64,000 nucleotides of DNA from Stichopus chloronotus (taxonomy: Eukaryota; Echinodermata; Holothuroidea; Aspidochirotida; Stichopodidae): positions 12,230,705 to 12,294,704 of the forward strand of contig CM037846.1 of assembly GCA_021234535.1 (NCBI GenBank), read 5' to 3'. Positions 41,390 to 61,909 of this stretch are shown here, in pieces. The notes under the pieces were generated by a model, which was given only the letters and a program-made list of their open reading frames with translations, searched no databases and was not told the DNA's origin. How positions within the stretch are numbered: the stretch's first letter is position 1; the number at the start of each line of letters is the position of its first letter. The position numbers and the translations under genes are program-made.

Positions 41390-41821
41390 CTATACGTCGG
41401 TACCCTTCTTACTGTGTTCCATCGCGGTGTCTTCGTGGTCGTGGACCACCGTCCTCCCATTTTCGTTGATGATCACATTTCCGGCCAAGAGCGGTGAGGA
41501 TTCCTCCCTCGCGACGCCGTTCAGCGGGGACGTGGATGTGTCCCCTGAGGTGACCGACATTTCGTAACTGTTCTCCAAGTTCGAATTTGCGGTCAGTTTC
41601 CCGTTACCTAGGGTCTGGGATCCGGTGCTGTGCCTCTGGTTGTTGTTGAGGTTCGGACTCCTGTTGATGACGCTACCGGGAGACTGGAGGGTCGTGATAT
41701 TGGTGGTATCGTCCATCCTAGAGATGGTGGTATTCGCCGCGTAGTAGTCGTTCCTCCTCCTCCGAGGGCAAGGATTAAAGCCAAATAGTCGCTCCCATTT
41801 TCTGAGAAGAACTGCTTTAAC
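41390..41821 (-). CDS. Receptor exon 11: cytoplasmic tail and stop
   Basis: Phase 0 start at an acceptor reading gatgcaacag; stop TAG at 41390-41392. Residues 344-486. Starts [17 protein letters not shown], the helix-8 region that follows FLNSE in CRH-type receptors, then CPRRRR and a Ser/Thr/Asn-rich tail ending KKGTDV. It is longer than the roughly 50-residue CRH-receptor tail and offers many possible phosphorylation sites. It is separated from exon 10 by an 8.2-kb intron. The frame stays open a further 147 bp into the intron, which is not coding in this model. Confidence 0.88.
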   Translation of the reverse strand, partial: VKAVLLRKWERLFGFNPCPRRRRNDYYAANTTISRMDDTTNITTLQSPGSVINRSPNLNNNQRHSTGSQTLGNGKLTANSNLENSYEMSVTSGDTSTSPLNGVAREESSPLLAGNVIINENGRTVVHDHEDTAMEHSKKGTDV

Positions 41822-48392: not shown

Positions 48393-51300
48393 CAAACATC
48401 TTAAGTGATGCACAAAATATTGACGTGGGATTTGGAGATGACAACAAGACTATTTGGATTAATCTCCCGGAGTGTCTTGTACATACTTATCTCTTCCTTC
48501 CATACTTTACGGTCTTTGTTACGGACAAGGTTAGAGTAGACGAATTTTCAACTTTATGCCATCGAAATTTTGCATTGTAAAGTCAAGATCAAAATTTAGA
48601 ATGAAGTCCAAATTTCCGGCGACTTTTTCTAGAAGATAGACGAAGTAATCATGAATAAGTTATTTTTTTTTTCATGTTTTAAACGCGAACAATGTTCTAG
48701 TGAAACACGAACATTTAAATGTGACATATAGTGGGATGGGTTGTTCACGTGTCCTTAGTTACGAGGTTGAGGACACTGGAGCGATATTCACTGTTAACAA
48801 TTTTTCGTGCCCTGCCTCCTTTCCTGGCCAAACGAACAACTCAGTATTATCTTTGTATTGTATGTCGATAAGTCGACATCGACCTATTCAATGTCCCTCA
48901 AGGGCGTCCGTAGGAACTTTGATTAAAGTTCTATTTTGAACCACTTGACGTCTAAAATAGCCACCTTTTCAACGGGTAACTACGACACCCTCCCAAAATA
49001 GTTTTCTGTATCAGAAGGGTCCAAAAGTAGACTTTTTGCGACTAAATTCTGATTTGAATAGTAGTAATATTAAGTTTAAAAAGTAAAAAATTCAGTAAGT
49101 CGAAAGGTTTGAAAAAGTCGAAATTTTGACCGTAATATTGTGCATATTGTACAACGTAGACGAACGAGCGCAGACAATCGGAAAGTTAATGGACGTACCA
49201 CTCGAGGCGTGCCATGTGATATGTTTCCAGGGTGCTGCTGGAATTTTATTCAGGGGGACCTTAACCCAACTGTTATAGAAATGTATATTTATTAGTGCGT
49301 TAGAGTATGACTTACGTTGTGGACTTATTATATAGGACTTTGCTTGCCATTTAACAGAAAACCATGGATTTATTGCAAAGATGTTTACTATTCTTAATTT
49401 CATACATGCTGAATTTTTGCACAGTTAAAATGAACGTTTGCACACTTTGAGTAAAGATTTCGCAACCGGGTGTTCTACCCGATGCAAAACATGTTATACT
49501 TTCGGGTATCCGGATAACCGACCTACTACTAACGGCGGGTTCATGGGTAGGGATTTTGGACCCGATACAAGCACTTACATCTGTTACGTAAGTTTCAGTT
49601 ATAGTTTCAGAAATGAAAAAAGAAAATCTAAAAAAATTGAAGAGGAACGAATGTCAGAATCTCCCACCCCACAGTCAACTCACCAATTTAAAAGGGGGAA
49701 ATGGAAGAGAAAAACTTTGAAACTCAGCTGTCATGAAAAAGTAAGTCATACTGTTGGAGGACATTTTATGCAACATGTTCTCATAAATCAGCGGTCGTAG
49801 CAGTCCCAGAAAGATAGAGCATAAGCAACCGCAGGTCCTCCCTTAGTATTCAGGTCTCAGGAAAAGTATACACACATACGTTCGGTTCTTAGGTTCACTA
49901 GGTTTGTGTTCTGTGTAATGTCAGAGCATGCCCGGTAGTTGAAAATAACTCAAGTTCAGTCTCGAAGACAAGGAATAGCTTTTTTTTGACTACATGCAGT
50001 GACACCTTTTTTTTCGTATAGCAGAGAAGAAGACTAACAATGATGTAATGACCGAAACTCTTACCTCCGAATTCAAAAATACGTAGATTAGTGACACCAG
50101 GAATCCCTGAAGACCACCTAATATGGTATTTGAAATCAAAATGACGATGACCACCATACTAGGTAATAGTTCGTTGATGAGGTTAAAAACAAATATTGGG
50201 AAGACGTAAGAAATTCCGAGTAGTATCACTAACACCAACGTGGCACGAGCCGTTCGCCTGCAAAGTAAACGAAAGCATCGTAATCGATCACATGAATAAA
50301 AAAAGGATTTTCATGGTAAAAGATTTTGTGAATAAATTCAAGCCCATCATTGAATCATGAAAGAAACAAAAGTCTCCCTTCCAACCCTTTACAATTACCA
50401 TCACCTTATCAAACACCAGCAGTGATCATAATACTTCACACTGTTATAATAATTCACACATTAACTAATTGTATAATTTGTATGTTTGATCGTACAAGTT
50501 ATTAGTGTGATACACGTGAAGAAAAATAGATACCCGTACCCACACTGGTACCCCTACTACAGTCCCTTTTTCTGTACTCGTACCCGTACCCGCTTATACG
50601 GTCCTTTTTTTTTTTGGACCTGTACCGGTACTTATGTCTTGGTACCAATGTCAATAACCGTACCATGCTCATGATTTGGTACAGCACCCGTACCTATACC
50701 CAACGTCTACACTTGGTCACACAACGCTGACTTATATAGCTTCTGCTTATAGCATGCAAAGTAGCACAGATGATTACCCGGTGACCAGCGTGCCTGCACT
50801 TTATTTTATTTCAGTGATTGTGATAACAAGACTTCCACCCAGCCTCTGGATCGACAATTCTCCGTGTATTTTCTTTCATAATAGTTTGAAGAAAGTAATT
50901 CCCATTCATGTCATACTCCACGCATTTAGCAACTTTTCAAGATAAGTGACTATCATTTCACTAGGATAGCAAGGGGATGAAGTTCAACAAACATCACCTG
51001 TAACAGGTATTGTTATAGCTCAAACAATCGGTACTGATTTGCCTAACTACTGAGGAAGCTCTGTACAATTGTCGAGAGCAACCACTCTTTTTCACTGAAC
51101 AGTATAGCTAGTACAGTAAGATCACAGTTGAGTGAAAGTATGTTATGGTAACATAATGATGTCGACATCTACAAACAGTTGTTCTCAAAAGACTGCAAGA
51201 TCAAAACTAAGTGATCATTTACCCAATATTTAATTCTGTTAACACGACGCAGCTACGTATTTAACTTTTTTTTAATCGGCTAATGGAAAGTAGCAGCAAA

Positions 51301-52615
51301 CTTGATTTATTCAATTCAGTTCAATAAAACGGACATAAAATGCAGTCAGTGAGGAACGCTCCACCCAAGGTTTATCATAATAAATGTACCACACGTATGT
51401 ATACAAAAACACACTTTTACATTTTTTTTTCTAGCATGTAAATAGTAACAGTGATCACATTTTCTTTTAACTGTTCCTAAAATATACCCATATACACTTC
51501 ATGTTACTGATCACCAAGGATATCTGTAAAATACGCCTTTACCTGAAATCATGTTACAACGTTTGTTTTGACGCACTTTTAAACTTGTGCTCATGACCTT
51601 GTAATCATATAACTTATGATTTAGGTAATGTTTTTAATCGGCAATCATACTCCTACCCTTGATCTGGTTCTCATATCTGGTACTCATACTGATAAACAGG
51701 TACTCATACACGAAATCATACCCCTGACCTAGTACCGGTACCTGTGCTCATACCCATGACTGTTTACCCATAGAAATACCCGTAACCATACCGGCAAGTC
51801 TGAACCTGTACCCGCACTCATGCTCATGATTAAGATTTCTTCGGCCCCGTACCCGTGCAACCGACAGTATCCCTAGCCATACTGTGTTTCATCGTACCTG
51901 CCGTCATACCCGTACTCATGTCATGGTATCCGTACCAGTACCCATGGCATTGCACGCACACTGCAATCACTGCTAAGCCAGGCCCGTAGCCAGCTTTTAC
52001 CCAAGGGGGGTTCGTCGACTATCTAAGCGGAGCGCCACCATCAGTTGGCGTGGAGCGTACACGAAAATTTTCGGCTTTTCAAACTTGCCAGATGGCCGAA
52101 AACGGCACTTCCCGAGTGTTTTATGCAAGAAGAAGTTCAGCCTTCATTTCGAAATTCTCCTTGCTTCTTGGAACACTTGGAAAAATATTGGGGGCTGAAC
52201 ATACTTTCAAGCCCCCCCCCCCCACTTTTCATTTTTCATCGAGGAAAAAACACACGATCAACAATACTTAAAATAGCTCTTTTATCTTGATCCAGTCTCA
52301 TAAAAACTGAAGTGGTTACTGTGATTATATAGATGATTCATTTCATAGAGGCACGTATCATGGCAACTTCAATAGGCTTGAGAGTGTTGCACCACCCTCT
52401 GCCCCTCCCTCCCACAGTAGCCTTTTAGATTTCGTGAAAATTTTGCGAATTTGGCCATTTTACCCTCAAAATGAGGCACTTGGAGTTGCCTCTCTCCTAT
52501 CCAGAAATTGAGTTTGCCCTCCAATACCCCCTCCCTCCCTCCCTCTAGGCTTCATAACATCACATCACATACTGTCTCAGAGTGTACATACATGTATATA
52601 GATATATAGATATAT

Positions 52616-52695
<80 letters not shown>

Positions 52696-55600
52696 ATTGA
52701 ACTCCATGGTTCTGGTGGTACCCACTGTCGTTGAAAAGTGATTTAAATATTCGTGCATTTTGTGCAAATCGACGATGCCCTGGAAAACGCCAATACTCCA
52801 TTGAAAAAATGTTCTGGCCTTGGCTACGGGCCTGTCTAAGCAGCAAAGTTCATACTACTAAACATCAACATTCTATTAAGGTTATATTGAACAGCAATGT
52901 TATGTTAAAAGTCACACTAAACATCAATATTCAGGGTTACATTGAACATCAATTCTCTGTTTGCTGTTGGTCTTTGCTGTAGTGGCCGAGCACACTGACA
53001 TGTGTAAACTGCATGCAGTTTTTAAAATGTAGGCAAACCTGTAATGCTTCAGCTGAGTGTCGCCACTGCTCTCCCGTAACTTGGACATCAAAATTCGGAC
53101 AATGTTGAGGAGGAATATACTGTTTAACTGCAAAGTTAAAAGACAAGGACATAATACATCAACATTTGTTCTTCACATAAGATAAACCTCTCTCGCTGGT
53201 TCTAATCACAACATAGCTGTTGGTAATTACTGTCACTTTATACCGAATGCGAGCACTGAATGTAGCCATGAACTAAGATACTAACACTAACAGTTATTCA
53301 TTGACAAACACGATGTTAGATGAAAGATGTCTTAGAATTTTCAAGAAGTAATACCATTTTGCACTGAAACTTTAAGTCCACAAATCTTTTGTTTAACAAC
53401 CTGGTTACCGTCCTCCGTAAGTAACTTTAATAGTTTTCAATATGCATTACATGTCATCAGCTTTTAAGCAAATAACTTAACTTATTGTAACTTATTGTAA
53501 CTTAACTTATTGTAACTTAACTTATTGTAACTTTAAAAGTATCGTTATATCATGAAGGTTCTTGCAGACACTGCAGTGATAGGAAATCCTTAGCGATAAT
53601 ACGTCGATTAGGAATTTTTGTAAGTACCTTGATAGCAAATGTGGATGTGACTCTTATCCTAACAAGAAGTTCATGTAGCAAAACTTACCACTAGGACTGC
53701 CGTGATGGGCAGGATGACCAGAAGTTGCAATGCGAGCTCTTCTGCACTCCTGATGAAAGAAAGGAGAAGAGTAGAATGGTCACTGGTTATTTGCATTAGT
53801 AATTGAACATTCAAAATTCAAAGTGATAGTCAAAGGATAAAATTCAGTCAGTCAGTGTAAACAAGAGTGGTCGATTACCAAATACCCCAATAGCAGGATC
53901 CCCAATTGTTTTGAGTGGAGGGGACAATAACAGATTTGTCACATATGACGACTGTGACCTGAAACTAAGCAAATAAACTTAAGTTTTAAAACCTGCGTTT
54001 ATAAGATTAAGAACACCAATCTGAAGCTTACAGCGCTACCGCTACATTTTTATCAATACATTTTCTCCGTTTGGTGGGTGTCAACTAATGGTGGCACTCA
54101 GTTTTCAGGGAATTATTGTTGCTTGGCCGGGCCACCTCACGTAAGCCCTTTGTCTTTGCCATGTCAGATGTCCATCTCCTCTCGAAATCAATCAACGCCA
54201 TGGGTGTCAATTACGTCTTAGATCGAATAATTATTGATAAAAATATGAACTACGGATAAAACAAGATAAGTGACTGCTTTAATACATATATTGCATTCTT
54301 TTTACAAAATAGGTTGAACAATAATCTCACATTTTTGTCGCAAAGCAGACAATCATAAATGTTCCAGAGAAGAATAACGGGGCAACTGTGTGTGAAGAAT
54401 AAAAAATACGAGAAGAATCAAACTAATGTAGAGAAATCTTCAATATCAGTAAACGATTATAATCTCAACTGAATGGAGAAAGAAAGATTTGTGAAAACTA
54501 GTAAAGAAAAAAAAAACACTGAATTCATTCGATAAAAGTGTGATTTAGAAGTTAGTGTCCTGTGGAAGGCATCATGCTCGTCAGAATACTGTTGTATTCT
54601 TGCTATTGTTGATTCGTGAATACGAAATATTTACTGGTTGAGAAGCTATGAATATGCAATAACACGATGGCTTTATTGTTCAGTGTGTAATTTGCAAGTG
54701 TTGCAAGTGTTACGCAATAGAGATGTTGCTCGAACAGACGCATTCATCAGCTGTTTCCTATATTCTAAGCTAAATTGGACGTTAATGCATGTAATTTGTT
54801 CCGTTCCTACAATTCATACCTTGCTTAATTTGTCCTTTTGTCTCTCTGGTTTGTCTCTTATGTCTCTGCCCGAGTGTATTAGTTTACGTTTACATTTGCC
54901 ACAAAAATAGACAGATTTTGCGTGCAGCTGGACGTACGTTATTGCATCCACTATTTGTATTGGTACGTTCCAAGTAGTGGGTAGTTATAATGGTGAGTTA
55001 TGAGGGACCCTTACCAAAACGTTATTAATGTAGTTGTATTCGTATTCAGTGCGTATTTGTGATTACAAAATAGCAGTCAAGAGTGTGACCCCTCCGACGA
55101 TTTCCACCCCACTAGGAGCCTTATGAAACTACATAATAGGCAGGTAAACTGGTGTCACAGAGATAAAAAGGTAACATATGAGTTACAAAATTGCAATTCA
55201 CGATATTTGAAACAGAGTCACTTCCAAAAAAAAAAAAGGGGGGGGGGAGGTATTTGTCTTTGGATACTAATAGTAGAAATTTAAACAAAAAACAAGTGAA
55301 AGTAGTGAAAAAATTACGGACGGAGGGCAATTTGAGATTGGTGACGGGAGAAGCGACCTCGACAATATATCACGCATAGAATAATGTGAGGTCAAAAGTG
55401 GTGTTGCTGCAAGCAGTATACTTACCCCATCCGATAGCGCAGTACCAATAAAACTTAATTTGATCGACATCGAAACGAAAAGTGAGGGCGACAACGGTGT
55501 GGAGGTAGAGCCCTTCCACGAACATCCAAGAGAAACTACACATTTCTAGGTATGTGGAGATGAATAATACCACCTTCTGACCAACGATAGATATCTAAAA

Positions 55601-58600
55601 TACAAAAACACAACGGACGAAGTGATACGAAAGATGGAAAGGAAATAATGTATATCCGTGGAGTAAACAAGCCAGGGGTTAGATCAGATACTTAAGGTAA
55701 GGGAAATACGAGGGACATTACTTTGGTAATCATTTTTCATCCTCAAAAATTCTAAAAAGAACCATAACCTATTACGTTAAGTGCACGAATTGTATTTAAT
55801 CACGTTTTAATAAAATGCGTACAACACTGGAAGCAGATTTTCGTAGTTGCCTGTATGTAAATCAATGCAATCGCGAAATAGGTCACTTTCTCTTTTCTTC
55901 AATGCTTTCCTGTTACCTATTTGTGAGATATGAGCACTAAGGTTAAGTTCTTCGAACAACAGAATTTTATTTTAATTTGATGTACACGCATGTATGACAC
56001 AATGTCCTCTTCTTACTGCACTTTAATAAGAGTCGTTGTGGTGGCAATTAAACGTTTTCGTGCTCTCAATTCCAAATAGGAAACCTTTGGTTTGACTCCA
56101 TCGGTGTAATAATAATTTATAGAGTCCAGGTGGATTCCATATTCAGTCTTATACTAACTTATAAAAGAATTTGTTTTGAAGAATTCAGTTCCGATGTAGA
56201 AGAAGAGTGTGCCAACAGAAACCCATTAAACATACCAATGATTGTGAGGGTAATCGCCCTCGGTTACCCTCTCAATCATTGGTATGTTTACGCTTTAACC
56301 AATGTCATTTCTATGAAAGAGATTGAAATAAAGATGGGTGAAACTGAAACTGAACTTAAATCCTTAATTACTCACACATTAATGTCCCATTGTAAATTAA
56401 ACATTGGGATCCTCCTAGGTTGACTGTTTTTTTCATTACTATGTGAAGGACACTTGACAAGTTTAGAAAAAAAAAATAGGGAATTTCACGAAAAAAAAAA
56501 CTCGATGAGCCTCTTTAAAAGTGCCACCGCCTTTAGAGTCAATATTTCGTATATATGTGGTGTAGTGGTTTTGCTCTAGCGCCCTTATATATTTATTGGT
56601 GAATTCCTGCGTTTCCTGGATGACATGATCTGCAATGACTTTGGACATCCAGAGCTGACTTACTAGCCAACTAATTGGGCTATCTCTTGAAAATTGTAAC
56701 AGAGCAGACCGCATGCCACAGCTTTAGAAGCTGTATTGTGTTTCCTCAGAAGAAATTTGTGCATTGAAGGCTAACGCAATTTGTAGTTGGAATTGCGTAC
56801 ATGGCCGGTCGTTTTGAAGAATTCAGTTCCGATGTAGGAGACGATTGTGCCAACAGAAAGCGATGAAACACACTAATGATTGTGAGGGTAACCGAACTCG
56901 GTTACCCTCACAGTCATTGGTTTGTTTAAGCTTTAAACAGTGTGTTTCATGAAAACCTGCTCTAACACCAAACACCTATATAGACTGAAATATCTGACAT
57001 TGTCAACATTTCTAGGAAATAAACACATAAAGTGCAATAGATACTACTACAAATGGTATTTACAATTAAAATCACACAATTATGGCATTAAACGTGTCAT
57101 TCACGTAGACTCTTTCAACAGCTGTGTTATTTCCCTTTTTTGTTGAAAGAAACTCGTGCGTGTTATTTAAGGCTTTTTTTTAATACTGCAGAACATGAAC
57201 TTCATTCATGATCATCCCAATAAAACAGTGATCTGCAAGAGATAGTTCCACAATTTTCAGACAATTTTCATTACAGAGGCCGGAGCTTTAAACCACACAC
57301 CTGCATATAGTTTTCATAACACAAGGTAGTGATTTTGAAAGAAAGACACTGCAACTCCAGCAGTGTCAGTTCGAGAAAGATTTTCAGTTGCATCAAGCTT
57401 ACAAAACTTTTATCTCACACAAGATACCCAAACTGTCGCAGAAAATTTCCTTTTGTTCTTTGCAATTGGAGTAGGTATTTAACGTTGAACTTAATCTGAC
57501 CAGTACAATGAGAAAGTTACATTGAGTGTGAGTATACCAAACGTAATCATACTGAGCTTATACGCAGAATTTCGACTAAACGATTCATGCAGGTACATAA
57601 TGCATATTGATGTGCAGGTTGTTTGGAAAACTTACCGAATGTTTTATAACTAATGCAATAAAAAGGGATGTGCCCAAAACGAAATATTTCAAAGCGAAGG
57701 AAGTGATTAAATGCCAGTGGATGTAATTTCTCGTGCACCATAAGCTCCTGAAAGAAATAACGAGAAAAAAAAATACTCCGAGAAAATAAACGGTTAAAGA
57801 GTATACAAATAAAAGCATACCTATTTCTGTTGTGAATCATCCGGAGTTAGGATGGGAATTGAAGAATTAAGGAGAAAGTAATATGTGAAGCCGATTTATT
57901 AATTAATAAATTAATTAATTACGTTTGCGATCTATTATCATTTCAAAGACACATGTGCTGTAAGTTTGTGGTAGCCATGTAGGCTGAAAAAAATTATGAC
58001 TTACCTTGAAAAGGCTAGTATGATGAAAGCGATGATACACGCAAGTAATGAAAATAATTGACAAGGTAATGTCACGTACAAGTTTAACTGTTGGAGAAGG
58101 TAAACAATAAATCACACAATGAGTGAACACATTTAGTAGGTAAGAATAGAGATGCCAATGAATAAATATATTATTAGAGTTATTGAAGAAATAAAAAACA
58201 ATTGGATTTTGCGAATGCCCATGAAGAAGAGGGAGACCTTTTCACTGACCGTCAACCTCGATTTAACGTTTGGAATGCTTAAACGTCCATAGATTTTTAC
58301 CACCAAAAAATTTGTAAAGCTCTACCATAACATGTGGCCTAGGAACTTTTTCCAAACTGATATGTTTAAGCTATTGACCCATCAGAAACGCCCATTTCGT
58401 AATTTATCATAATTATCTGTGAATTCAGTGATGAGAACTTCTGTCTAAACGTTGCATATTGAACAGACGTGATTTCAGCTTGAAGTCTACTTGATAGTAA
58501 CGCTGGTCCCATTTTATTACAATTCTACAAGGCTTGAATCTTTGGCGCACATAGTAAGTGTGAAGATAAAAAAACTCCCATTAGTTTCTTGAACAATGCG

Positions 58601-60053
58601 ATCTTTGCCCTAAACGGAAAGTAATTGCTGATCATTTAACAACTAAGAGCCAATAACATGCACATGCACTCGCGATATCGGTCGAAGCCACTGCGATGAC
58701 CGTTAGCATTGCGAAGATAAATACATAACGTTAACATCAACCAGAGATCACGTGTCAGATCAACATGCTGAATTACAGTCGAGAAAAATTCCTGTTTTTC
58801 AAACCTCACTTTTCTGTTGTTAAAGTGTGGTATATGTTGTAATCAAACCCCATTGCCTTGGGTCTTTTTTAACATTTTACTCAAGATGAAAACAATAACA
58901 TAATCTAGTAGACGTCATATTTTCCTAATAATGTAATCTACTGCTAATGTCAGACCTGTGCAACCTGCGCATGAACAAACATGCAGAACTGAGACGGGAA
59001 GAAGCTTTGCTGGCTATTTTAATGAAATCAGTTCATAACGAAACTTTATCTGTTAGTCTTTTAACGTGTAACGTTTCAAATAAACGTAATATTCTTTCCA
59101 TGGAAAATAATATCCGGTACTTGTGAGCCTATACGCTAACGTTCTGGAGTGTGATGCCTCCGTGTCTTCATTGATATAGTTCACTGCATGTGCCATCACG
59201 TAACTGTGCACATGCGATATTTTGGTGTTTCGATACAAGTTTTGTTGTTGTCGTAGCTGAACTGAAGAAAAGTCCAAGACTTAAAAGTGACTTACAATCT
59301 CGTATTTTGTACATTCGTACTGATATTCTGCAATCGACATTTCCTCCCAAATTCCATTCTCTTGACATGTACGTGAAACTGGAAAAAAAAAGAACGAAAG
59401 GCAAAACATGATCTCTACTGTCGTTCATTCTGTTAGTATTGCTGATATAAACTTGTTTTTACCAACTTTTTGAGCATAATTATTCCATCCGAAATTAAGT
59501 TACCTTTTTTTGGAGAGCATTAATCAATCCATGTCCATTTAAATCCAGCTGTATTCATTAACATCCATCTGTATTCCCCTAAAGTATTTTAATTTATATC
59601 CGTCTAGGTCCATCTTTGTCCATCCATATCCGTCTATATCCAACTGTATCCATCTAATATCCATTTGTATTAATCTATATTTATCAATATCCATCTGTAC
59701 ACTTCTATATTTTCGGTCCGCAATTTACACCCATCTGCCACAGTATCCACCGTGGGGTCAATCGACATCCATCCACATCCATCTGTGGGAGGTTTGTTAT
59801 ACTTACCACTGTGAAGCTTGTTTTCATCGTTACATTCCATCGTGATTCTTTTACCTGCTTCTGTGGGAGGCCAGCAGAGTCCATTATAATGGACTCCGCA
59901 ATGTACATCTTTAAATGAAAAGAAGAAGAAGAAAGGTCTTATTGCATCATCGCAAAAACAAATGCTCTCACGCAGGGTGGTGGGTATACATAGACCTATA
60001 CCAAGCAGTAGCAGAAGCAACTTCCACCTTTCGGTTAAAACAGTGTCACTCAC
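41390..60053 (-). CDS. Class B1 (secretin-family) GPCR, CRH/DH44-receptor-like; 11-exon gene
   Basis: Spliced model on the minus strand (exons listed separately) summing to 1461 bp, 486 residues plus stop, with every exon-exon phase matching (1,1,0,2,0,1,2,0,2,0). Order: signal peptide (about 1-27), hormone-receptor cysteine domain (31-84), TM1 (about 92-116), TM2, TM3, TM4, TM5, TM6, TM7 (ends about 340), cytoplasmic tail (344-486). It would sit in the plasma membrane, bind a peptide hormone and signal through G proteins, as the family does. Closest by eye to CRH receptors: [13 protein letters not shown] at the end of TM5, [12 protein letters not shown] entering TM6, NYIHWHLI in TM2, LQGF in TM7, FLNSEV before the tail. 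Class B residues kept: His127 (2.50), Glu181 (3.50), Asn251 (5.50), Gln329 (7.49), Tyr337. Odd: no Cys at 3.25 (Gln160), GWV instead of GWG, Ile290 where Pro 6.47 is usual, and no ATG in the first exon. The family is sure; the CRH assignment is likely but calcitonin- or PTH-like receptors are alternatives. Confidence 0.88.
42476..42665 (+). mobile_element. MITE-like element, copy 1, flanked by CA repeats
   Basis: Near-identical in layout to 46838-47030. Inverted GAGGACC (42500-42506) and GGTCCTC (42634-42640) mark its ends, with a weaker outer inverted match around ttattttcc and its partner ccgaaaacaagg. A perfect 25-bp palindrome TTAACAATAGA-CTC-TCTATTGTTAA is at 42548-42572. CA/CG-rich microsatellites abut both sides. 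Confidence 0.7.
46838..47030 (+). mobile_element. MITE-like element, copy 2, flanked by CA repeats
   Basis: Starts ctttgttttcc and ends with the inverse of ccttgttttc, with inner inverted GAGGAC/GTCCTC. The internal palindrome is imperfect here (aacaatggactgactattgtt). A (CA)n run of about 25 bp abuts the left and a CA-rich run the right. Confidence 0.7.
48325..48392 (+). repeat. (AAC)n microsatellite with poly-A core
   Basis: Repeated caacaa units. Confidence 0.97.
50065..50257 (-). CDS. Receptor exon 10: TM6, loop 3 and TM7
   Basis: Phase 2 to 0, residues 279-343. Acceptor tttactttgcag, donor gtaaga. Starts [20 protein letters not shown] (TM6) and ends [19 protein letters not shown] (TM7). 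The LQGF glutamine (329) and the Tyr337 before FLN are the conserved class B TM7 residues. The TM6 P-x-x-G motif reads I-L-L-G (Ile290), losing the proline kink. The extracellular part between them (about 302-312) is short. Confidence 0.92.
50526..50700. repeat. Degenerate GTACCC-type satellite, array 1
   Basis: Irregular repetition of gtacccgtaccc and related tacccatac units, with interruptions. Confidence 0.75.
51645..51960. repeat. Degenerate TACCCGTACTCAT-type satellite, array 2
   Basis: Repeats of catacccgtactcat and gtaccggtacctg variants; same motif family as array 1, about 1 kb away. Confidence 0.75.
52594..52697. repeat. (TATAGA)n / (TA)n microsatellite
   Basis: Several tatagata units followed by more than 60 bp of pure TA. 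Confidence 0.97.
53039..53127 (-). CDS. Receptor exon 9: end of TM5 and intracellular loop 3
   Basis: Phase 0 to 2, residues 250-278. Acceptor taactttgcag, donor gtttgc. Reads [20 protein letters not shown] and then SGDTQLKHY. This is the strongest CRH-receptor match in the gene: vertebrate receptors have [20 protein letters not shown] here, and calcitonin receptors a near variant. Asn251 is the conserved 5.50 residue. Confidence 0.93.
53477..53533 (+). repeat. (TAACTTATTG)n minisatellite
   Basis: Repeated acttattgta units in the intron just upstream of exon 9. Confidence 0.85.
53689..53749 (-). CDS. Receptor exon 8: end of loop 2 and first half of TM5
   Basis: Phase 2 to 0, residues 229-249. 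Acceptor tttctttcatcag, donor gtaagt. Reads [20 protein letters not shown], a hydrophobic TM5 start that continues directly into the next exon ([10 protein letters not shown]). Confidence 0.85.
53879..53951 (-). other. Alternative exon candidate between receptor exons 6 and 8
   Basis: A 73-bp segment with a cacag acceptor and gtaatc donor that is phase 1 to 2, exactly like exon 7. It reads [24 protein letters not shown] and would join SAEELALQ. It carries a Cys and Trp near where class B loop 2 has its conserved Cys-Trp, and total loop length would match CRH receptors, but it has no good TM4. Could be a mutually exclusive exon, a relic, or chance. Confidence 0.3.
54331..54385 (-). CDS. Receptor exon 7: TM4 (preferred model)
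   Basis: Phase 1 to 2, residues 211-228. Acceptor ttcttcacacacag, donor gtgaga. Reads [18 protein letters not shown]. It has the proline at the expected distance after GW and a hydrophobic run, and it fits the flanking phases exactly. Phe220 sits where the conserved Trp 4.50 would be. Joining straight to exon 8 leaves a loop 2 about six residues shorter than in CRH receptors and without cysteine. An alternative exon with the same phases is at 53879-53951. Confidence 0.62.
55426..55594 (-). CDS. Receptor exon 6: TM3 and start of TM4
   Basis: Phase 0 to 1, residues 155-210. Acceptor ttgtattttag, donor gtaagt. Contains [20 protein letters not shown], the class B TM3 signature with Glu181 (3.50), then YCAIGW leading into TM4. 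Counting back from Trp177, the position of the conserved TM3 cysteine (3.25) is Gln160 in the string VGQKVV. The codon after GW is completed by the next exon and gives Val instead of the near-invariant Gly. Confidence 0.93.
56171..56330. repeat. Hairpin-bearing repeat, copy 1
   Basis: Shares ttttgaagaattcagttccg and gtgccaacagaa with copy 2 at 56811. Contains a 62-bp inverted repeat at 56228-56289: left arm aaacataccaatgattgtga plus gggtaa, right arm its complement with one mismatch. Confidence 0.8.
56811..56960. repeat. Hairpin-bearing repeat, copy 2
   Basis: 640 bp from copy 1, same orientation, with the hairpin at 56866-56927, again 62 bp. The core arm tgattgtgagggtaaccga pairs with tcggttaccctcacagtca. 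Confidence 0.8.
57636..57747 (-). CDS. Receptor exon 5: TM2
   Basis: Phase 2 to 0, residues 117-154. Acceptor ttatttctttcag, donor gtaagt. Reads [20 protein letters not shown], the signature class B TM2 (compare C-x-R-N-x-I-H-x-N-L in the family), with His127 at position 2.50 and Arg123 at 2.46. The rest of the exon is hydrophobic and ends IKHS before loop 1. Confidence 0.92.
58005..58087 (-). CDS. Receptor exon 4: TM1
   Basis: Phase 0 to 2, residues 90-116. Acceptor ttctccaacag, donor gtaagt. Translates to [27 protein letters not shown], hydrophobic and followed by Arg117 across the splice. The spacing from the last ectodomain cysteine to TM1 is about ten residues shorter than in CRH receptors, so a small phase 0-0 exon between 58088 and 59295 cannot be excluded. 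Confidence 0.82.
58088..59295 (-). other. Receptor intron 3
   Basis: No exon identified. A short phase 0-0 exon restoring the usual linker length between the ectodomain and TM1 would have to lie here. Confidence 0.6.
59296..59378 (-). CDS. Receptor exon 3: second half of the hormone-binding domain
   Basis: Phase 1 to 0, residues 62-89. Strong pyrimidine tract and ccag acceptor, gtaagt donor. Reads [11 protein letters not shown] and then YECTKYEI, fitting the conserved R-x-C-x-x-[NG]-G-x-W ... Y-x-x-C end of the class B ectodomain (Cys66, Trp72, Cys84). Five family cysteines (31, 39, 53, 66, 84) are visible; the sixth, normally in an N-terminal helix, is not obvious, since Cys22 falls in the signal peptide. 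Confidence 0.85.
59517..59795 (+). repeat. TATCCATCTG minisatellite
   Basis: More than fifteen imperfect copies of a 9-12 bp unit (tatccatctg, atccatctgt, tccgtctat) filling receptor intron 2 and ending about 12 bp from the exon 2 donor. Confidence 0.85.
59807..59908 (-). CDS. Receptor exon 2: first half of the hormone-binding domain
   Basis: Phase 1 to 1, residues 28-61. Acceptor is catttaaag, donor gtaagt. Contains [17 protein letters not shown] and a further Cys53, matching the class B ectodomain pattern C-x(n)-CWP-x(3)-AG-x(n)-C of CRH-type receptors. The usual 'CP' after the fourth cysteine is 'CN' here, and the loop to the next cysteine (53 to 66) is shorter than in vertebrate CRH receptors. 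Confidence 0.85.
59972..60053 (-). CDS. Receptor exon 1: signal peptide
   Basis: Reads (V/M)[26 protein letters not shown]: a charged n-region, a leucine-rich core and a polar end, a textbook signal peptide. The exon ends at a gtgaga donor in phase 1, and its last base plus the next exon makes His28. No ATG is in frame: the frame runs upstream only to a TAA at 60069-60071 and the codon at 60051-60053 is GTG. The true start is therefore in an unseen upstream exon, a non-AUG codon, or a sequence variant or error. The exon's right boundary is thus uncertain. Confidence 0.65.
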
Positions 60054-60644: not shown

Positions 60645-61012
60645 TTAGTAATCTTTTTGCCGATATGCCTGCAGAGAGATTATAAAAGCATTTGAAGGAA
60701 AAATGACAGCTTTTGAAGGCCTGGGCTTGTAGCGTATGCTGCTTTGGTTATCCGGCCCAGTTACCTGACATACCGTATAAATTTTTCGACATCCAGGAGG
60801 AAAGTCTGAACTAAGAGTTCCCTTAGAAAATTGCGTTAAAGGGACTAGAGCCACTGAAAGATGATCTGTCATAAAAGTTGGGAATATTTTTCTCTCATTG
60901 TTGCTAAAGCCATATCTCAACGGCATGTTCGCTTCATAGTTATCAGTTTTTAAAGAAATATTTATCTCAAAGTAGGAAACTTTGTGATCGGAAGATGTCA
61001 CCCAAGCACAAC
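60645..61012 (-). CDS. Possible exon of an unidentified extracellular protein (domain copy B)
   Basis: Open frame containing VSYFEINISLKTDNYEANMP, then TDHLSVALVPLTQFSKGTL and YTVCQVTGPDN. It aligns by eye with copy A over about 100 residues at similar length. A possible acceptor is the tag at about 61013; a possible donor (gtaact) follows YTVCQ, so the coding part may end near 60772. Function unknown. Confidence 0.33.
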
Positions 61013-61176
61013 TACACGAATACAATATGCATTTTCTTATAATCTTGGGGAGGGGGGGGGGACTCAAATTCAAAGAGAAACAAATACCTCTTGCAGCAGT
61101 ATGCCACCGAAGTTACGTGGCATTTTGGTAACCATGAAGCAACTTAAAAATCTTTCTTGACCGGAGAAGTCTTTCT

Positions 61177-61514
61177 TCAAACAGTAATATCCTGAGTTAA
61201 GACAAAAGTATTTCCATGGGGTTTGAAAGGCTTGCAGTGAAAACTATACTCTTTCCTTTGAGAGCCCCTTCTCTTGTCAGTAAAATATGCCTTTAACTTG
61301 GTAGGACGGTTTTGGTTTTCTTCCGTTAATTGTGAAAGGAGTGTAACGCTAGCGTAGTCAGATATAGACCAAGTTGTGAGCTTGACCTTATTGTGCATTT
61401 TGTAGATGTTTCTTTGTTCATTCTGACACTTTGGATATGGCTTTTCATCACAAAATGCCGCGAAAAACTCAACTGCCTTGTTTTCTATTCCACTGGATTC
61501 GAAAAGCACCTTCC
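61177..61514 (-). CDS. Possible exon of an unidentified extracellular protein (domain copy A)
   Basis: Open frame of about 112 codons following a good acceptor (ctcattttcccag), starting in phase 1 with KVLFESSGIENKAVEFF and ending at a TGA. Contains three cysteines and the string SDYASVTLLSQLTEE followed by YSFHCKPF. Composition is balanced, not low-complexity. It resembles the frame at 60645-61012 in the pattern [ST]D-x-x-SV-x-L ... Y-x-x-C-x-x-x-x-P-x-x-N, suggesting two copies of a roughly 110-residue beta-rich (perhaps Ig-like) domain. No family recognised and no clear donor before the stop. If real, it belongs to a gene upstream of the receptor on the same strand. Confidence 0.35.
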
Positions 61515-61909
61515 CTGGGAAAATGAGATATCGTTTACCTAGTCAGTGACGAATTATGTAGCCTGCTCGGTGGACGAACATTATCTGGGTCGTTGACCAA
61601 AAAGTGGCCGTGTCTTTCAGTTGGATTCGATTGGATAATTGGAAAGCCTGACTGTGTTTGAAGGATCACCATTTGAACATTTTTGTGAAGAATTCATGAA
61701 CATAGTTATTTCGAGGTCTTAGTCATTTTTTCGGGAGTGAAGGGAGTAAAAAAAATTTCGAGAGTAAAAAATTAGCTTTTTTAGTAAAACATTTAGCTTT
61801 TTCCCTGCCATCTAGTAACGGGATATATGAAATGTCATGGTTGGTATTCACCTGCACCCTCAAATTTGCCTTTAAAGACAAAAACTCATCACCCCAGAGA
61901 GTTTCAATT

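Follow-up and report, generated by a model that had tools for sequence, protein, structure and literature searches.

Loss of the TM3-loop 2 disulphide in a CRH/DH44-type receptor of the sea cucumber Stichopus chloronotus and in its sampled echinoderm relatives

Introduction

The disulphide bridge that joins the third transmembrane helix (TM3) to extracellular loop 2 is among the most conserved features of G-protein-coupled receptors (GPCRs), and its role in secretin-like (class B) receptors is not settled. As reported by Wygas et al. (PMC10419011), it is present in 92% of rhodopsin-like and 97% of secretin-like receptors and, in the class B numbering that places the TM3 glutamate at 3.50, its two cysteines are 3.29 (TM3) and 45.50 (loop). 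The same report describes two mutants of CRF1R, a receptor of corticotropin-releasing factor (CRF), C188A (3.29) and C258A (45.50), that show a wild-type-like expression and Gs EC50 values shifted 2-fold and 10-fold, respectively, while their recruitment of arrestin3 is reduced by 80% or does not saturate. These mutants suggest that the bridge is dispensable for Gs and needed for arrestin (PMC10419011). Here, we describe a gene carried by the minus strand of a 64,000-nucleotide stretch of the sea cucumber Stichopus chloronotus (contig CM037846.1, positions 12,230,705 to 12,294,704), hereafter the window, to which all coordinates refer. It encodes a class B1 receptor of the corticotropin-releasing hormone (CRH)/diuretic hormone 44 (DH44) type in which both cysteines are missing.

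The receptor kind itself is already known, and it is the loss of the bridge in this echinoderm receptor that appears to be new. Such a loss was not found in the titles and abstract openings listed from the open-licence literature on echinoderm CRH-type or class B receptors. In the same way, the portions of PMC7642236, PMC4633518 and PMC12340439 that were available contain nothing on receptors without the bridge, and one literature match on echinoderm CRH-type receptors, in its available part, uses CRH receptors as an outgroup.

Missing cysteines in the receptor and its relatives

The receptor is encoded by ten GT-AG exons of matching phases that give 458 amino acids followed by TAG. It has a 7tm_2 domain (Pfam, E 5e-39), a hormone-receptor domain (HRM, E 8e-8) and the switch His2.50, Glu3.50, Thr6.42 and Tyr7.57, called HETx in PMC7355025, all of which define class B1. 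Two features that are typical of this class without defining it are absent, namely the TM3-loop 2 disulphide and the complete PxxG motif of TM6, of which Gly6.50 is kept and Pro6.47 is replaced by Ile.

The initial annotation of the window placed the unusual region at 53689..55594. These limits are exact on the minus strand, 55594 being the first base of the exon that encodes TM3 and the start of TM4 (55426..55594) and 53689 the last base of a 61-bp exon (53689..53749). It had rightly read a Gln in place of the TM3 cysteine, but under the number 3.25: Gln132 (codon CAG, 55577..55579, read from 55579 to 55577; sequence and alignment) lies 21 residues before Glu3.50 (E153), hence at 3.29, a position occupied by Cys in almost all relatives. 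Between 4.60 and 5.42 (FMIVCFATKMSAEELALQLLVILP), the receptor has a single Cys, C196 at 4.64, which is encoded by the 55-bp TM4 exon (54331..54385; GW-V-APLFFSGTFMIVCFATK). Since the structure predicted for the Apostichopus japonicus orthologue places the matching residue within helix TM4, loop 2 itself, encoded together with outer TM5 by the 61-bp exon (SAEELALQLLVILPITAVLV, no Cys), is cysteine-free as well as short, as had been proposed.

Comparisons were made over 187 rows, i.e., 186 fetched proteins and the window receptor. These are search matches and form an uneven sample that is heavy in vertebrate CRF receptors and their isoforms; one row is a starfish calcitonin-type receptor. After removal of 14 of the 187 rows that were gapped or broken, 172 of the 173 scorable rows, the seven echinoderm CRH-type ones included, have some Cys between 4.60 and 5.42, the sole exception being P0171, in which this stretch is cut to 7 residues. 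This count fails to separate the echinoderms because their receptors have a Cys at 4.64 or 5.38. The claim of a cysteine-free loop 2 therefore rests on the alignment and the predicted helix limits; the automatic 45.50 column, which misplaces insects with long loops, was left unused.

The protein search that yielded the two closest relatives is represented by the best 120 of its 184 matches, and two further searches scored roughly 8000 candidates sharing most words. P0001 is an A. japonicus protein named CRF receptor 2-like (71% identity in the search, 75% over the full model), and P0002 is a holothurian-type protein of 543 amino acids (65% identity) from contigs of at most 3.5 kb. Both lack the two cysteines and share GWV and Ile6.47; at 4.60, where the starfish and urchin orthologues keep Trp, they have Phe or Tyr. 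The window receptor aligns with P0001 without any gap from TM2 through TM3, and loop 2 of P0001 is longer by 2 residues. Further matches come from the starfish Acanthaster planci, Patiria miniata and Asterias amurensis, the urchin Diadema antillarum and the hemichordate Glandiceps talaboti.

In an alignment of 13 proteins, both cysteines are missing from all seven echinoderm CRH-type receptors (three holothurian-type, three asteroid and one echinoid), which have Q, G, G, R, K, T and S at 3.29. Both are present in the six others, from a hemichordate, a mollusc, a spider, a brachiopod and a fish, together with the calcitonin-type receptor of Asterias. Over the whole set, Cys3.29 is found in 179 of the 187 rows. 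The eight rows without it are the seven echinoderm ones and the carp P0113, which looks like a broken model as Glu3.50 and Trp4.50 are also missing; outside the echinoderm CRH-type set, 179 of 180 class B1 rows thus keep this cysteine. On this evidence, the loss of the bridge is real and specific to this receptor in the echinoderms sampled. The view that both partners are gone, and not by error, is borne out by two holothurian-type, three starfish and one urchin sequences besides the window. The description of a lineage-specific receptor was too narrow, since all seven sequences share the loss and it is therefore not peculiar to one species.

The other substitutions put forward at first are of unequal value. 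Ile does replace Pro6.47 (Ile262, codon 50226-50224, in the TM6-TM7 exon 50065..50257), Ile or Val is found there in all seven echinoderm CRH-type rows and in one slug protein (P0167), with P0186 gapped at this position, and this divergence carries weight. Val is indeed present at 4.51, giving GWV, but it is unremarkable because Gly4.51 is often replaced in other receptors (102 Gly, 69 Cys, 7 Val, 6 others and 3 gaps over the 187 rows). The replacement of Trp4.50 by Phe was a misreading: the Trp of the GW motif is kept, in the TM3 exon, and the Phe stands at 4.60. His2.50, Glu3.50 and Gln7.49 are kept, as the alignment confirms. All seven echinoderm rows share these three residues as well as Tyr3.53, Thr6.42, Gly6.50 and Tyr7.57, and Arg2.60 is replaced in them by Lys, as in the window receptor, or by Ser.

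Phylogeny and timing of the loss

In a tree built from 43 selected proteins, the seven echinoderm CRH-type receptors form one clade (100/100) located within the CRH/DH44 group (90/93, not starred). Topology tests, in which the groups were named with the tree already in view, reject a grouping with PDF receptors (p-AU, the p-value of the approximately unbiased test, 0.007) and disfavour one with calcitonin receptors (0.036). Neither a grouping of the echinoderm clade with the hemichordate receptor nor one with all deuterostome CRH receptors is rejected (0.42 in both cases). As the seven receptors form one clade, the most economical scenario is a single loss that preceded the separation of asteroids, echinoids and holothurians, a split that dates back about 480 million years or more. 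The sequences suggest that there was probably one early loss in echinoderms, affecting this receptor only.

Divergence of the inner and outer halves

In sea cucumbers, the inner (cytoplasmic) half of the receptor is nearly frozen and the outer half is diverging fast. Between the window receptor and that of A. japonicus, 100 of 107 positions are identical in the inner halves and 64 of 102 in the outer ones, in agreement with the divergent extracellular half and conserved intracellular switches recognized at first. The canonical reference consists of 231 CRH/DH44 pairs from 22 proteins, which share sequences and are not independent. At an inner identity of at least 0.9, outer identity is 0.67-0.91 for seven canonical pairs versus 0.45-0.63 for the three holothurian pairs. 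At 0.7-0.8, its mean is 0.46 (56 canonical pairs) versus 0.29 (8 pairs) and, at 0.6-0.7, 0.33 (49 pairs) versus 0.23 (7 pairs).

The exon that encodes helix 8 and the C-terminal tail (41390-41821) is 80% identical to A. japonicus, and the well-conserved tail is identical at 107 of 131 positions. It ends with TDV in the three holothurian-type sequences, a terminus resembling that of class I PDZ ligands and not shared by the tails of the starfish and urchin receptors.

Gene structure and other features of the window

Nine of the ten exons (59908-50065) join into an open frame of 315 amino acids in the splice model. The first two encode the extracellular domain (ECD): 59807..59908 carries the CWPP motif of the hormone-receptor domain and 59296..59378 the end of this domain. 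They are followed by the TM1 exon (58005..58087; Ser1.50, Cys70 at 1.46 and Cys78 at 1.54), the TM2 exon (57636..57747; CTRNYIH with His2.50, Lys at 2.60), the TM3, TM4 and 61-bp exons described above, an exon for inner TM5 and intracellular loop 3 (53039..53127; Asn5.50) and the TM6-TM7 exon, which includes Gln7.49. The tenth (41821-41390) adds 143 amino acids corresponding to helix 8 and the tail, and ends with KKGTDV and TAG. The first nine exons were placed by the splice model and tblastn, with P0001 as query and a Pfam HRM match for the first one, the sequence itself for TM3, the alignment for TM1, TM2, TM4 and TM6-TM7, and the Cys count for the 61-bp exon; the tenth was placed by tblastn and its reading frame.

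Five of the six ECD cysteines are encoded within the window, and all six columns are Cys in six full-length echinoderm orthologues. A tblastn search of the window with the A. japonicus protein located no exon for the signal peptide or the first ECD cysteine, which must be encoded by exons past the window edge. When seven class B1 proteins (calcitonin-type, PDF, secretin and CRH-type) were used as tblastn queries against the window with E up to 0.1, their matches were confined to the exons of this gene and the exon edges, although PMC12638048 lists, for A. japonicus, a gene named CRF2 among the neighbours of AjCTR. Rfam and tRNA scans of the window gave 0 and 0 matches, and a scan for bacterial promoters and terminators, which is meaningless for an animal gene, remained near the shuffled expectation.

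Several other features were observed. The TM2-TM3 intron contains two 133-nt copies (56173-56305 and 56811-56943) that are 87% identical and have 30-nt inverted arms (TAAACATACCAATGATTGTGAGGGTAA...); this element looks like a small hairpin or miniature inverted-repeat transposable element (MITE)-type repeat. The TM5-TM6 intron holds a 103-nt array of TA-type repeats (52595-52697) and a long TACCCGTACC-like low-complexity stretch recognized by eye (50530-51960). Upstream of the receptor exons, two adjoining minus-strand open frames (60648-61112, 155 codons; 61180-61542, 121 codons) have no Pfam match and are possibly unrelated exons, repeat remnants or chance frames.

A predicted working receptor without the bridge

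Taken together, these data make it fairly probable that the echinoderm CRH/DH44-type clade lost the bridge once, had acquired Ile or Val at 6.47 by the same stage, and still consists of peptide-gated, G-protein-coupled receptors. Cys3.29 and Cys45.50 would have been lost along the stem lineage of echinoderms or, at the latest, before the split of starfish, urchins and sea cucumbers, and the proline of the TM6 PxxG hinge would have been replaced by that time. The peptide would be caught by the intact hormone-receptor domain before entering the transmembrane pocket, and the receptor would fold and signal through G proteins without the bridge. Because loop 2 would not have to hold a bridge, the outer wall of the pocket could be free to drift, and the prediction for sea cucumbers is a loop 2 reduced to a tight turn between TM4 and TM5. 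According to the available text of PMC7355025, PxxG is the hinge of TM6, and the mutations P6.47A/G6.50A stabilised the crystal structure of GLP-1R. The loss of the proline may thus offset that of the bridge by compensating for stability.

As the CRF1R mutants without the bridge keep Gs signalling and recruit arrestin poorly, a working, G-protein-biased receptor is predicted, with near-normal Gs signalling and weak arrestin recruitment unless the conserved tail compensates. The altered ligand binding or activation proposed at first is plausible; by analogy with CRF1R, an altered arrestin coupling would be more likely than a lost activation of G proteins.

Several observations weigh against this reading. 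Outside the echinoderms, Ile6.47 is found in a single row, the slug P0167 (Arion vulgaris), which keeps both cysteines, so the losses of the proline and of the bridge are not strictly linked. The CRF1R data come from single-Cys mutants and not from a receptor that evolved without the bridge, and in GLP1R the same mutations lowered potency 322- and 33-fold and impaired membrane integration to some extent, while Emax was unaffected (PMC10419011). Arrestin could still bind with the help of the long conserved C-tail, and the literature search found no functional work on any echinoderm CRH-type receptor. The window receptor alone has Cys-Ser instead of Thr-Asn at 3.42-3.43 (residues 145-146, exon 55426-55594), Asn3.43 being kept in the six other echinoderm rows, and this Ser could have an effect of its own on activation. 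The drift of the outer half is not a general trait, the excess being confined to pairs with a sea cucumber: the three asteroid pairs match 28 canonical pairs (mean outer identity 0.61 versus 0.59), and outer identity between the urchin and the starfish (three pairs, 0.37-0.41) falls inside the canonical range (0.34-0.60). Furthermore, the tree gives no firm order between the echinoderm receptors and the hemichordate, vertebrate and protostome CRH receptors, and the echinoderms sit on a long stem branch (0.88), which leaves room for an old paralogue. Lastly, the matches listed (best 120 of 184) include one urchin only and no crinoid or brittle-star receptor, so that the loss is not placed more exactly.

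Alternative explanations

A bolder version of the history is that the whole phylum has natural G-protein-only, arrestin-poor CRH receptors that were never bridged, with a rigidified TM6 and the loss of the proline as compensation; we hold it to be possible and clearly less probable than the single loss set out above.

It is unlikely that the unusual outer half reflects a relaxed constraint following the loss of the CRH-type peptide in sea cucumbers, the receptor drifting or having taken a new ligand. The outer halves of the holothurian receptors do diverge faster than canonical ones at equal inner identity and, in the accessible part of a neuropeptide survey of A. japonicus, CRH is mentioned once, for a precursor that bore this name and was PDF-type (PMC6586643). 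However, the holothurian inner half and C-tail are strongly conserved, and A. japonicus is one of the species given in the legend to the four panels of Fig. 6 in PMC5627052, of which panel d is a CRH alignment; a CRH-type peptide may therefore already be known from a holothurian. CRH-type precursors have been reported in a brittle star (PMC5627052) and in a starfish (PMC4772807), as given in the available text of these papers, and a term search of the main text of a crinoid survey (PMC9793003) found no CRH. As starfish thus have both a CRH-type precursor and receptors without the bridge, the bridge is missing even where the peptide exists, and ligand loss is not the cause of its absence.

The bridge could also have been replaced by another extracellular disulphide between newly gained cysteines, which seems doubtful. 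Such cysteines do exist: the four starfish and urchin rows have two additional cysteines in the linker preceding TM1 as well as Cys5.38 (0/167, 0/173 and 1/173 in the others), the three holothurian rows have Cys1.46 and Cys4.64 (0/172 and 1/174), and all seven echinoderm rows have Cys1.54 (0/174). Those of starfish and urchins (C131, C136 and C301 in P0121, with matching columns in P0146, P0147 and P0148) are absent from the holothurian-type rows and may pair with each other. Nevertheless, the groups did not gain the same cysteines, position 3.29 no longer carries a Cys, and the tops of TM1 and TM4 are far apart in the class B fold.

About equally doubtful is the idea that the echinoderm clade is an old paralogue and that canonical CRH receptors also exist in echinoderms. 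The loose fork and the long stem noted above would fit it, but the grouping with the hemichordate is not rejected, and each named echinoderm species has one CRH-like protein among the matches listed; the absence of a second receptor is weak evidence, given the best 120 of 184 matches and the roughly 8000 candidates scored.

Finally, a sequence error, wrongly joined exons or a dead gene is extremely improbable, despite an alternative in-frame acceptor 18 bases into the TM3 exon, first coding exons outside the window and a gene known here from genomic sequence with no transcript of this species: the gap-free alignment with A. japonicus from TM2 through TM3, the same residues in P0002 (presumably a transcript, as contigs of at most 3.5 kb, far below the span of this gene, hold the full protein) and the same losses in six further echinoderm proteins all oppose it. 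A missed exon is very unlikely given the same absence in the A. japonicus orthologue and P0002; apart from small gaps, the window exons account for the whole A. japonicus protein from residue 77 onwards and, in an enumeration of single exons (70-170 nt, between the TM3 and TM5 exons) that gave 14 open, phase-compatible candidates, none of the ten with both Cys and Pro is TM4-TM5-like. With 458 open codons and its conserved inner half, the gene does not look dead. Judging from these sequences, chance or model error is thus very unlikely to explain the absent cysteines.

Comparison with known systems

This clade, apparently bridge-less since before starfish and sea cucumbers split, offers a natural test of the role of the bridge and ties its loss to that of the TM6 hinge proline, while automatic names such as "CRF receptor 1/2-like" mask a structurally distinct receptor. 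The window receptor shares with the vertebrate CRF1 and CRF2 receptors the HRM and 7tm_2 layout as well as His2.50, Glu3.50, Thr6.42, Gln7.49 and Tyr7.57 (fish row). Its best matches by sequence among solved structures are CRF2R and CRF1R, and it is 33% identical to fish CRHR1. It differs from them by the absence of Cys3.29, Cys45.50 and Pro6.47, by two additional residues in intracellular loop 2 and by its long conserved C-tail. The arthropod DH44 and the mollusc and brachiopod CRH-like receptors belong to the same CRH/DH44 group in the tree, whereas the rows sampled keep Cys3.29, Pro6.47 and a Cys between 4.60 and 5.42, the loop 2 Cys being directly visible in the mollusc, spider and brachiopod rows of the 13-protein alignment. 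Some rhodopsin-like receptors also naturally lack the equivalent bridge, but they belong to another receptor class. The engineered CRF1R C188A and C258A (PMC10419011) are likewise CRH-type receptors without the bridge; however, they are laboratory single mutants that retain one free Cys, whereas both cysteines are naturally gone in the echinoderm clade.
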